From Candidatus Acidiferrales bacterium (lineage in GTDB: Bacteria > Acidobacteriota > Terriglobia > Acidiferrales > UBA7541), in the NCBI GenBank assembly GCA_035934015.1, contig DASYYH010000003.1, positions 186,001-250,000 of the forward strand: a stretch of DNA of 64,000 nucleotides. The letters are read 5' to 3'. Shown here one piece after another: positions 55,111 to 60,112 of this stretch. Numbering within the stretch: the first letter of the stretch is position 1; each line of letters begins with the position of its first letter. Both the position numbers and the translations under genes were made by a program. The notes below the pieces were generated by a model. That model did no database searches and was not told the DNA's origin. It saw nothing but the letters and a program-made list of their open reading frames with translations.

Positions 55111-55405
55111 TAAAATCGGCGGCAAGCGACTCTTTTTGCGCCAACGAGCTGATTTCATTTGCGGCATAAGACGGCAGTGATGCTTTTGCGCGCAGTTTAG
55201 GACTATCGGGACTTTTCGTCCGCATCTGCTCGCCACTGTCTGAATCTGCGCGACATTCCAGTCTGAGTCTCCTTACGATGAATTGGCCCCCGCACAATTG
55301 TGGTGGAGGCCGGCGCATGCGCGGAGAGAGCCTTCGGCTAATGCATCTTGACGCGTAGCCGGAGAATCTAATGCGGACATTTGTGCCAGTTTTACGGGAG
55401 GAGCC

Positions 55406-58087
55406 TTGATCGATCGTGCCGATCATGTTGTTGCGGTGATTTTTGTTTTGAGCGTCGTGCGTGGGAACGAGACCATAGGGAAGCCGCAACCGAATGAACC
55501 GCTGGGTTCGTTTCGCCGGCGCTTTGCCGGAGCGGCGATGCTGGCCTTACTCTGTCTTGCCGCGGCGATCGGCGGCGGAATATTCACGCGACAGACTGCC
55601 CACGCGGCTGCTCCTCCGCAAGGGCAGATGAAATCGCATATCTTCGGCAATCCGGACGTCTGGCATTGGGCGCCCAGCCGGACGTACCACGTGGAGAACT
55701 ATAAATTGGCATTTCATTTTGATGAACCGAAGGGCAAAGTCTTTGGCGACGAGGTCATCACACTCCGTCCATTCGATCAGCATTTTCACAAATTTTATTT
55801 GAACAGTGCGGGACTGCGGATTGAATCGGTGACCTTGGAGCCTGCGCAGGGCGCCGCCGTGAGGCTCGCCTATGACGCTGACGGTAAAGATTCGCGCCTG
55901 TGGATTACACTCAATCGCGAATACAACCCTGCGGACTCGCTGCGTGTGCGCATCGTCTACCACGGCCTTCCGCGCACCGGCCTTTTTTTTGTGAATCCCA
56001 CAAGGGACTATCCGAATTTGCCGCGCGAGGTCTATTCACAAGGCGAGCCGGAGTTCAATCAATACTGGTTTCCGTGTTGGGATTATCCGAATGACATGGC
56101 CACGAGCGAAACGATTACGACCGTTCCCGAGGGACAAGTCGTCGTTTCCAATGGCAAACTCGTGAAAGTCACTCGCGCAGCCGGACAAGTGACCTACGAC
56201 TGGGTGGAAAGCATTCCCCACAGTTCCTATTTGACTTCGCTCGCCATTGGCCCATGGCATAAAATCTCAGATAAGTACGAAAACAAGCCCGTCGATTATT
56301 ATGTCCCGCCGTATATTGATGACGCCACGACGCGTCGCTCCCTGCATCTGACGCCGGACATGATTGCATTTTTCTCGCGCGCTACCGGCGTCGATTACCC
56401 CTACGAGCAGTATGCACAAACCATGGTGCACAATTACGTTTTCGGCGGTCAGGAGAACGTTAGCGCGACCACGCTCACCGATTTCCTTTTGCACGATGCT
56501 CGTGCCGAGCAGGATTACCCGAGCACGGACGTTGTCTCCCATGAACTCGGCCAGCACTGGTTCGGCGATTATGTGCAGGGGTACGACTGGCCGGATATCT
56601 GGCTGAATGAAGGATTTGCCACGTACATGGAGGCACTTTACACTCAGCACCACGAAGACTATGACGCCTATCGCTTCGCTATTTACAACGATCAAATGAC
56701 GGAGCAGACGGAAGGCCGCGAAAATTACTCGCGCCCGATCGTGGACCGTCACTATAACGATCCCCTCGATATGTTTGACGCGACAACGCACGAAAAGGGC
56801 GCGGCAATCCTCGACATGCTTCGGTATCTGATCGATGGCCCCGAGGCAGCCTCTCACGAGCCGTCGCAAAATGAACTATTTTTTCGCGCTTTGCATCACT
56901 ATCTCGTAGCACACCACGAGCAAGTTGCGGACACTGCGGGTCTGATCTCCGCGTTCCGTGACACAACCGGACAGGAACTCGGCTGGTTCTTCCACGAATG
57001 GGTCTACATGGCCGGTCATCCGGCGTATCGTGTGCAAGCGACATACGACGCCGCGGAAAAAATGGAAAAGATCAGCGTCGCGCAGACTCAGCACGTGGAC
57101 GCAGAGACGCCTGTCTTCGACATGCCCATTGAGCTTGCCTTCTACGGCGCAAACGGCGAACACAAGCAGATTCAAGTTCGCGATAATTTGCAGCAGCAAG
57201 AGTTTTTTGACGTTTCGCTGGACTTTACGCCTCAGTGGGTGGACTTCGACCCCGATGACTTCATAGACAAAATCGTGGACTTTGAAAAGCCGGCGGCCAT
57301 GCTGGCAGCAGAGGTGCAAAAAGACCCCTCGATGATGAGCCGCCTCTGGGCAGCGCAGCAGCTCGGCAACGAAAAGAGCGCTGATGCAGATGCCGCCGTC
57401 GCAGCGTTGGCTTGGACGCTGGCCAACGACAAATTTTACGCCGTACGAGCTGCCGCAGCTTCCAGCCTTGGAAATCTTCGAACCGATCAAGCGAAAGCCG
57501 CGCTCCTCGCTGCCTTGCGCCAGCCTGACAGCCGCGTCCGCACGGCAGTCGTCGAAGCGCTTGGTAATTTTTCGCAGGACAAGACAGTTTACGACGCCTT
57601 CGTTAACGAACTTCACAGTGACGATAGCTATGCAGCCGAAGCTGCAGCAGCCGAGGCTATCGGCGCATCGGGCAATGCACAAGCATTTGAAGTCCTGCAA
57701 GCTGAAAGCGCGTCGCATCTGGAAGTTCACGTGATGCAAGCCACGCTCGCTGGACTGGCGGAGACAAAAGATCCCCGCGCTCTTTCAATACTGCTTGCGC
57801 AATCGCGTGCGGGCGTGGAAGAACGCGTCCGCATGACCGCGCTCGCGCTCTTGCCAACGTTTAAGGACGCAATGAAACGCGAGCACGCGCAGGAACTTGT
57901 TAACCTTGTCCGCACGGCGCTTGACGATCCTTATGTTCCCGTGCGCATGGGCGGTGAACGCCTCGCGGCGTCGTTTGACTTGACACAGTTCCGGACCGAT
58001 ATTCAGGCCGATGTCGATGCCCCGCTCGTATTTCGACGCGAACTCGCGCGCAAAGTTCTTGAGGAATTAAAGACATCCAAACAATAA
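55406..58087 (+). CDS. M1-family aminopeptidase-like protein with altered active site and HEAT repeats
   Basis: 893 residues from TTG 55406, behind a strong GGGAGGAG site. An N-terminal segment at about 40-66 (AGAAMLALLCLAAAIGGGIF) is a signal or anchor. The M1 beta domain and the thermolysin-like domain follow, then a C-terminal HEAT/Armadillo region from about 640 (VRAAAASSLGNLRTDQAKAA). Active-site changes: the canonical HExxH is HELGQHWFG, with Gln383 at the second zinc His position and His384 next to it. The third ligand, Glu402 in WLNEGFATY, is kept at the normal distance. The catalytic Tyr of YxKG is His462 (THEKG). The exopeptidase loop is GGQEN. It may be inactive or use a shifted zinc ligand. 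The 295 bases before it hold no gene. Confidence 0.9.
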   Translation: MIDRADHVVAVIFVLSVVRGNETIGKPQPNEPLGSFRRRFAGAAMLALLCLAAAIGGGIFTRQTAHAAAPPQGQMKSHIFGNPDVWHWAPSRTYHVENYKLAFHFDEPKGKVFGDEVITLRPFDQHFHKFYLNSAGLRIESVTLEPAQGAAVRLAYDADGKDSRLWITLNREYNPADSLRVRIVYHGLPRTGLFFVNPTRDYPNLPREVYSQGEPEFNQYWFPCWDYPNDMATSETITTVPEGQVVVSNGKLVKVTRAAGQVTYDWVESIPHSSYLTSLAIGPWHKISDKYENKPVDYYVPPYIDDATTRRSLHLTPDMIAFFSRATGVDYPYEQYAQTMVHNYVFGGQENVSATTLTDFLLHDARAEQDYPSTDVVSHELGQHWFGDYVQGYDWPDIWLNEGFATYMEALYTQHHEDYDAYRFAIYNDQMTEQTEGRENYSRPIVDRHYNDPLDMFDATTHEKGAAILDMLRYLIDGPEAASHEPSQNELFFRALHHYLVAHHEQVADTAGLISAFRDTTGQELGWFFHEWVYMAGHPAYRVQATYDAAEKMEKISVAQTQHVDAETPVFDMPIELAFYGANGEHKQIQVRDNLQQQEFFDVSLDFTPQWVDFDPDDFIDKIVDFEKPAAMLAAEVQKDPSMMSRLWAAQQLGNEKSADADAAVAALAWTLANDKFYAVRAAAASSLGNLRTDQAKAALLAALRQPDSRVRTAVVEALGNFSQDKTVYDAFVNELHSDDSYAAEAAAAEAIGASGNAQAFEVLQAESASHLEVHVMQATLAGLAETKDPRALSILLAQSRAGVEERVRMTALALLPTFKDAMKREHAQELVNLVRTALDDPYVPVRMGGERLAASFDLTQFRTDIQADVDAPLVFRRELARKVLEELKTSKQ

Positions 58088-58100
58088 ACCGAGGATATGC

Positions 58101-58574
58101 TTGGAAACGAAATATGAATTCGGCCGCGGCCCAACGCAAGAAGGATGCACCGTTCGCCGCTCTGGCCCAGCCGATAGCCAACGAATGGCGAATTTTTCCG
58201 GCCAGCTCGGTTATCCTTCCACTGCCAAGGAAGTCCGCGCTCGGCTGGCGGAAATTCGGCGATCAGATGATTGCGCCGTCTTCGTCGCGGAACTCGCCGA
58301 TGGTCAAATCGCAGGATGGATTGGCGTGTATATTTTTCGAAGCGTTGAAATGAATAAGCTCGTAGAGATCAGCGGCCTTGTCGTGGGAGAGGGGTACCGC
58401 TCTCGTGGTATTGGGAAGGTTCTTCTGGATGCCGCCGAAGAATGGGCGCGAAGTCGCGATTGCAAAGTGATCTCCGTGCATTCAAACGTCAAGCGCCAGC
58501 GAGCCCACGGATTTTACAAGAAAAACGGCTACGGGTGGTGCAAAACTCAGGAATTGTTTACGAAAGACCTTTGA
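58101..58574 (+). CDS. GNAT-family N-acetyltransferase
   Basis: 157 residues from TTG 58101, with GAGG about six bases upstream, 13 bases after the M1-like gene. GNAT blocks: QIAGWIGVYIFRSVE, then LVEISGLVVGEGYRSRGIGK with the acetyl-CoA pyrophosphate loop, LLDAAEEWARSRDCKVISVH and HGFYKKNGYGWCKTQELF. The aminoglycoside-type C-terminus (GFYKKNGY) resembles AAC(6')-like enzymes, but resistance cannot be inferred. Probably co-transcribed with the M1-like gene. Confidence 0.88.
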   Translation: METKYEFGRGPTQEGCTVRRSGPADSQRMANFSGQLGYPSTAKEVRARLAEIRRSDDCAVFVAELADGQIAGWIGVYIFRSVEMNKLVEISGLVVGEGYRSRGIGKVLLDAAEEWARSRDCKVISVHSNVKRQRAHGFYKKNGYGWCKTQELFTKDL

Positions 58575-58672
58575 ATTAAACGGTCGATGTCGCAACCACG
58601 TTTCTGCAAAACATTTTCGAGTCGCCGCGAGCGCCTTCGCCGCAGGCTGCGGAAAAGCGATCTTGTCCTATT

Positions 58673-60112
58673 TTGCGAAATCAGCTTGGCCCAGGGACTG
58701 CGTTGAGGTCCGGCAAGCAACCACCAGACGTCGCCTCCTCCCAGCAAGCCAAAAGCACGTCCACTTCCCCTCATAACCTGCGGAAAGAACTCAATCTTTT
58801 CGATGCCGTGGCTATCGTCGTCGGGACAACGATTGGATCTGGAATTTTTCTCATTCCCAGTTCCATTGCCTCGGAATTGAATTCCCTTGGCATTGTTCTT
58901 CTCGTCTGGATTATCGGCGGGGTTTTGACCATTTTTGGAGCTTTGTCTCTGGCCGAACTCGGCTCGATCTATCCCGGAACCGGCGGACTCTGCACGTACT
59001 TGCGTCAGGCGTATGGCCCATTCGTCGCATTTCTCTATGCTTGGGGTCTGCTTTTCATGATTCACTCCGGCAGCATCGCGGCGCTTGCGGTTGGATTTAG
59101 TCTGTATGCCGGGCAAATTTTCCCACTGACATTAATTGACGAAAAACTTTTGAGTGCCGCTCTAATCCTGATCTTCACGTTCATCAGTTGCCTTGGAATC
59201 CGCGGCGGCAAACTCACGCAGAATCTCATTGCCACGGCGAAAATCACTGGCCTTGCGGGAATCATCCTCCTTCTATGCTTTAAAGGCACGCGCCCGATTC
59301 ATCTTTTCAACGCGCTGGCGGACCCGGGCGCTCCGGCGTTTTCTTTCGCAGAATTTGGTATTGCATTGGTCGCAGTGCTCTTCGCCTACGAGGGTTGGCA
59401 TGTCATTTCGTTCGTTGCGGGTGAAATGAAGCGTCCGCAAATTGATCTGCCGCGTGCCCTTTTCTATGGCACCGCCATCATTATGCTGATTTATCTGACG
59501 GCGAATATCGGCTACTACCATTTGCTCTCGCCCGCCGAGATTCGTGGCAGCGCCGCCGTCGCAGCATATTCTGTCGGAAAAATCCTGGGGCCCATTGGCA
59601 GAAACGGTATCTCCGTTCTCATCCTCGTCTCCATTTTGGGCTCCATAAACGGCATGGTGCTTACCGGTCCGCGTGTGTATTACGCAATGGCCCACGACAG
59701 CGCGTTTCCTCGCATCTTCGGCCAGATCAACGATCGGTACCGGACGCCGATGCTCGCTCTGATCGTGCAAGGAATCTGGTCCGCCGTCTTGGCGCTGTCC
59801 GGCACATATCAGCAGCTTTTCACCGACGTGATTTTTGCCGCGTGGATTTTTTATGGCTTGGCCGTCGCCGGAGTTCTGGTTCTCCGTCGCAACCGCCCGC
59901 AACTCGAACGGCCGTTTCACGTTCCCGGATACCCGTGGATCCCGCTTCTATTCTCCATGGCTGCCATTGGAGTCGTGCTCAGCACGATTATCGAGCGGCC
60001 CATTGGGGCGCTCGTGGGGACTGCTCTCGTGGCTAGCGGCGTCCCGGTTTATTTCTTTGTCGTTAAGCGTGCAGCGCTGAAAACGCAGCAGATCGATCGC
60101 GCAGAAACCTGA
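58673..60112 (+). CDS. APC-superfamily amino acid permease
   Basis: 479 residues from TTG 58673; TTG 58703 is an alternative, and neither has a clear ribosome-binding site. Twelve hydrophobic segments are expected. The first carries the APC substrate loop IVVGTTIGSGIFLIPSSIA, followed by FGALSLAELGSIYPGTGGL and FAYEGWHVISFVAGEMKRPQ, then GSINGMVLTGPRVYYAMAHD. These match the LAT/serine-threonine-type permeases. Its position after two exported peptidases suggests uptake of the amino acids they release. Confidence 0.92.
   Translation: MRNQLGPGTALRSGKQPPDVASSQQAKSTSTSPHNLRKELNLFDAVAIVVGTTIGSGIFLIPSSIASELNSLGIVLLVWIIGGVLTIFGALSLAELGSIYPGTGGLCTYLRQAYGPFVAFLYAWGLLFMIHSGSIAALAVGFSLYAGQIFPLTLIDEKLLSAALILIFTFISCLGIRGGKLTQNLIATAKITGLAGIILLLCFKGTRPIHLFNALADPGAPAFSFAEFGIALVAVLFAYEGWHVISFVAGEMKRPQIDLPRALFYGTAIIMLIYLTANIGYYHLLSPAEIRGSAAVAAYSVGKILGPIGRNGISVLILVSILGSINGMVLTGPRVYYAMAHDSAFPRIFGQINDRYRTPMLALIVQGIWSAVLALSGTYQQLFTDVIFAAWIFYGLAVAGVLVLRRNRPQLERPFHVPGYPWIPLLFSMAAIGVVLSTIIERPIGALVGTALVASGVPVYFFVVKRAALKTQQIDRAET

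Follow-up and report, generated by a model that had tools for sequence, protein, structure and literature searches.

An M1/HEAT protein with an altered peptidase active site, conserved in one lineage of Candidatus Acidiferrales

The window considered here, a 64,000-nucleotide stretch of DNA from a Candidatus Acidiferrales genome, carries a gene for an M1 aminopeptidase homologue in which glutamine stands at the second zinc histidine and histidine at the catalytic tyrosine. Is such a protein a misread or decaying peptidase, a peptidase turned into a binding protein, or a metalloenzyme with changed chemistry? The first-pass annotation had proposed either a pseudo-peptidase, perhaps a binding or chaperone-like partner of the adjoining S9 peptidase, or a site rebuilt around a shifted histidine ligand. 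By homology the protein belongs to family M1, since its fold matches and both of its M1 domains score above the curated cut-offs (Peptidase_M1, 120.7 bits against 27.7; Peptidase_M1_N, 63.8 bits against 25.8), and the C-terminal HEAT domain noticed earlier is recovered by Pfam as HEAT_2 (Table 1). It has the M1_N and M1 domains and a thermolysin-like fold in common with aminopeptidase N (PepN), PSA, ERAP and LTA4H, and it shares with them H379-E380, E402 and the glutamate of the GxxEN loop, but it differs from all of them in that the second zinc histidine and the catalytic tyrosine are replaced.

Table 1. Features of the M1/HEAT gene and its product, in window coordinates
Feature	Position	Strand	Basis
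M1/HEAT protein gene, 893 aa from TTG, GGAGG upstream	55406..58087	+	intact ORF; start uncertain
Relic of the region that holds the DoxX_2 membrane domain in G003	55406..~55520	+	blastn pieces
Signal-peptide-like segment, RRRFAGAAMLALLCLAAAIGGGIFTRQTAHA	55514..55609	+	read by eye from sequence
Peptidase_M1_N domain, residues 97-276	55694..56233	+	Pfam, E 3e-17
Tyr210 in YSQGE; Trp in 32/32 canonical relatives	56033..56035	+	
Peptidase_M1 catalytic domain, residues 313-532	56342..57001	+	Pfam, E 9e-35
GGQEN (347-351), GxMEN with Met349 to Gln, Glu350 and Asn351 kept	56444..56458	+	alignment with relatives
H379-E-L-G-Q383-H384, codons CAT GAA CTC GGC CAG CAC	56540..56557	+	HExxH variant
Y389-V-Q391; LVT in canonical relatives	56570..56578	+	
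Glu402, third zinc-ligand position, kept	56609..56611	+	
His462 in THEKG, YxKG tyrosine position	56789..56791	+	
Ala508; Val in 32/32 canonical relatives	56927..56929	+	
HEAT-repeat C-terminal domain, residues ~633-885	57302..58060	+	HEAT_2 in two stretches, E 2e-17; model helices

The codons bear out the residues first reported. Gln383 occupies the position of the second zinc histidine with His384 one residue on, Glu402 lies the canonical 18 residues past Gln383, His462 stands at the tyrosine of YxKG and the GxMEN loop reads GGQEN. The HExxH-x18-E zinc site is thus broken at its second histidine, and the YxKG tyrosine is missing, in all five known members of the clade; the amine-binding Glu350 of the exopeptidase motif is present together with Asn351, with Met349 changed. 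An essential catalytic or metal-binding residue has been lost and the loss is conserved across orthologues, which is the pattern expected of a pseudopeptidase. Judged by its sequence, the protein lacks the catalytic features that define an ordinary M1 aminopeptidase. The altered positions had been described as nearly invariant in the family; this holds among 32 canonical relatives but not, for the position of Gln384, in M1 at large, where one relative in the PDB reads HEMAHMW.

The altered motif is narrowly distributed. A strict pattern, HE[LMIV]xQHW[FY]G, matches five of the 89 family genomes, which represent five species in three genera of this one family of Acidobacteriota: the host genome (G000) and G003 in one genus, G012 in a second, and G093 and G094 in a third. 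Searched at the protein level, the same 89 genomes yielded these five and no others at E <= 1e-130; none of the near relatives found within the family therefore has the canonical motif. Among 399 genomes sampled from the class the strict HExxQHW pattern had no further match, and convergent origins elsewhere in Acidobacteriota were rejected on that restriction to five genomes. A looser pattern hit 24 of 396 genomes of the phylum, and of the 20 loci read (four were left unread) only the window itself held an M1 protein.

Close homologues with a normal HExxH would have pointed to an error or a private mutation, as was recognized at the outset. Instead, the nearest homologues (61-87% identity) uniformly carry HExxQH, and canonical relatives start at about 53% identity. 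The altered motif is present in five of five clade members and in none of the 32 canonical relatives; HxKG and GGQEN are likewise found in all five, so the conservation of HExxQH and HxKG as a clade, which the first-pass annotation had suggested checking by alignment, is borne out. An IQ-TREE phylogeny of 37 proteins recovers the five HExxQH proteins as a single clade (100/100), placed with strong support inside the canonical relatives, and under midpoint rooting the change of motif is derived and has a single origin. The neighbouring lineages of the tree are Acidobacteriota M1/HEAT aminopeptidases (L034, L035 and L036 at ~50-53% identity, L049 of genome G207 at 51%) with the same domains and the same fold. 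These read HELAHQW, YxKG and GGMEN where the window clade reads HELGQHW, HxKG and GGQEN and further carries W210Y/F, L389Y, T391Q and V508A. One of these sisters, L049, has the canonical zinc motif and GGTEN for GGMEN, so the loop methionine varies just outside the clade.

That the host genome and its relatives are draft genomes speaks for a sequencing or assembly artefact, a private mutation or a decaying pseudogene. That reading has a negligible chance of being right: the same changes recur in five genomes spread over three genera, where the surrounding synonymous codons differ, and the gene is retained in all five species with intact frames and low dN/dS. An artefact is refuted by the independent genomes that bear the same residues, and the earlier view that the gene is not decaying stands on the low dN/dS, the intact frames and the clade-wide residues.

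Seventy-three positions between residues 75 and 628 are invariant or nearly so in the 32 canonical relatives; the five clade members, the whole of the known sample, keep 60 of them, are mixed at 5 and replace 8 (W210Y/F, M349Q, H383Q, Q384H, L389Y, T391Q, Y462H and V508A), seven of the eight by a single fixed new residue. H379, E380, E402, E350, N351 and K464 are kept throughout. Replaced positions are concentrated within active-site segments (7 of the 8, compared with 10 of the 65 that are kept or mixed), with a Fisher p of 8e-5 that is optimistic and indicative only, because the reported motif partly guided the choice of segments; with the four positions already named there set aside, three of the other four replaced positions still fall within such segments. 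Pairwise dN/dS of the catalytic domain is 0.046 between the window protein and that of G003 and 0.067-0.12 for other pairs with unsaturated synonymous sites, against ~0.17 for the HEAT domain in usable pairs. Likewise, dN is higher in the HEAT domain than in the catalytic domain, and clade-invariant positions make up 57% of the catalytic domain against 39% of the HEAT domain. Purifying selection acts on the catalytic domain. Since residues that are normally fixed were jointly exchanged for new fixed ones under strong selection, the active site was rebuilt rather than misread or decayed; mere loss of function would be expected to leave a relaxed pocket, and no relaxation is seen here.

How could a rebuilt site bind a metal? 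In one proposal, the shifted His384 directly replaces the lost ligand in an HExxxH arrangement. This histidine is invariant in the clade and adjoins the lost ligand, but geometry speaks against it. In a crude, CB-based model of ideal helices, a histidine pair spaced i/i+5 reaches a common metal at 0 grid points in alpha, 3-10 and pi helices alike, whereas the i/i+4 pair does so at 70 grid points in the alpha helix, with the metal reachable in alpha and pi; His384 is therefore an unlikely direct substitute for a histidine at 383. There is no indel between H379, W385 and E402, and in AlphaFold2 models of both the window protein and its canonical relative L036 the catalytic helix ends at the first histidine + 3, which gives no sign of a register shift. 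On these grounds the shifted-ligand half of the original proposal is disfavoured and seems improbable.

The overall fold is of little help beyond this point. The AlphaFold2 model of the window protein, for which 34 locus proteins were aligned, is an ordinary M1 fold (pLDDT 89.9, pTM 0.90; L036, 91.1 and 0.91), with the GGQEN block less confident (mean 68). Solved M1 peptidases match it at Z of about 41-43 and M1 peptidases make up the matches throughout; because the canonical relative returns much the same matches, the fold cannot separate the hypotheses. TAF2 (7edx_B) ranks 10th for the window model at TM 0.82 and is absent from the best 50 for the canonical model, a difference in rank that we do not take as meaningful.

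Two readings thus carry most of the weight, and the known chemistry of the family bears on both. The first, only a little less probable than the one we favor, is that zinc and catalysis have been lost altogether and the protein serves as a binding, chaperone-like or scaffold protein whose M1 pocket (Glu350, Asn351 and Gln212) would hold the N-termini of peptides or proteins outside the cytoplasm. The zinc histidine and the catalytic tyrosine are both replaced in all five species, mutating a zinc histidine abolishes activity in an M1 peptidase (PMC2241622), and selection on the pocket suits binding as well as catalysis. The M1 fold also serves for binding in the M1-derived proteins Tma108 and TAF2, which have non-enzymatic roles and, unlike the window protein, are eukaryotic; the precedent here is Tma108. 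According to PMC11266112, the Tma108 pocket binds nascent chains, probably non-enzymatically, and all of its active-site residues are kept but one in substrate binding. Against a metal-free binder, all five members keep H379, the general base E380 and E402, which such a binder would not obviously need, and thermolysin offers a catalytic precedent for histidine in place of the tyrosine (PMC10343166). The papers searched described no HExxQ zinc site and no bacterial M1 pseudopeptidase, which does not prove their absence.

The retention of His379, Glu380 and Glu402 suggests instead continued use of a metal, or at least of the site, although residues of this kind may serve a structural role. An altered metal site with changed chemistry, in a derived, clade-specific M1/HEAT protein, is the reading that we tentatively prefer, with a probability of roughly 0.45; from the residues at hand it would rank narrowly above a metal-free pseudopeptidase. 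Beyond the clade, the selection and the residues themselves, the metal, ligands, activity and substrate that we infer are as follows. After a single ancestral lineage had rebuilt the site, and purifying selection had held it, a metal would still be bound: His379 and Glu402 would hold it, the side-chain oxygen of Gln383 (or else His462) would serve as a weaker third ligand, and His384 would be directed away from it. His462 would take the place of thermolysin His231 and stabilize the oxyanion or a bound carbonyl, while the polar Gln349, Tyr389, Gln391 and Tyr210 would reshape the pocket around the first substrate residue. Through the N-terminus-binding Glu350-Asn351 the protein may bind peptide N-termini or another amine, acting as a slow or specialized metallohydrolase rather than as a general aminopeptidase N. 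Glutamine is a poor zinc ligand, which counts against an altered metal site.

That the site is catalytically active, with a His-Gln-Glu metal site (or one involving His462) and a thermolysin-like oxyanion histidine on the M1 scaffold, is more doubtful. None of the zinc-ligand mutants tested in rat aminopeptidase B is active, a set that included Ala, Tyr and Phe but not Gln at the second zinc histidine (PMC2241622), and in PSA the Y438F mutation of the catalytic tyrosine lowers kcat 1000-fold (PMC10343166); both count against catalysis. Yet PSA Tyr438 occupies the position of thermolysin His231 (PMC10343166), and since histidine works at this very place in thermolysin, an M4 endopeptidase that differs in having a complete HExxH site, the exchange at 462 need not be simply a loss. 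The tyrosine described as lost is indeed absent; loss of oxyanion stabilization is only one reading of its absence.

Apart from the active site, the protein had been called intact, which is true of its M1 and HEAT architecture but not fully of its extreme N-terminus. In G003 a single open frame (locus L044, reverse strand, N-terminal part at ~1800-2521) encodes a DoxX_2 domain (PF13564, E 4e-12) in frame upstream of the M1 domain. Just three short collinear pieces of this region are retained in the window at 55213-55674, so most of the DoxX part has apparently been deleted. These relics leave the true start of the M1/HEAT frame uncertain, and the TTG may itself be a relic. Segments resembling RRRFAGAAMLALLCLAAAIGGGIFTRQTAHA are present in other clade members, and the protein is probably exported.

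As for partners, the upstream S9 peptidase gene is a neighbour of the M1 gene in G000 and G003 alone; the proposed partnership finds no support beyond this one genus, and a clade-wide S9 and M1 pair was rejected. Directly downstream in G000 (window 58101-60112) lie genes for a GNAT acetyltransferase and an amino-acid permease. Their place after the M1 gene is conserved in G003 and, outside the genus, in G094, and they may make up a small unit that handles amino acids or peptides. No counterparts of the window neighbours were found in the flanks fetched for G012 and G093, and no partner is conserved across the whole clade. The host genome encodes two further M1-domain proteins, one with a canonical HEVAHQWWG and one degenerate. 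The latter (L003, contig C26, 55409-56194, reverse strand) has HVAAEQWWG for HExxHQWWG, VTDG for LNEG and VVQKG for YxKG, and a protein of the same-genus genome G001 (L093) resembles it with HLSAQQWWG, VTDG and VVDKG.

Taken together, the zinc ligand, the oxyanion tyrosine and the methionine of the exopeptidase loop were jointly exchanged along a single ancestral branch, and selection has since frozen the result. With sister lineages that remain canonical, this clade is a natural experiment in the rebuilding of a metallopeptidase site or its conversion into a binder. If an active His-Gln-Glu site were to prove true, it would show that evolution has found another way to build one of the best-conserved peptidase active sites.
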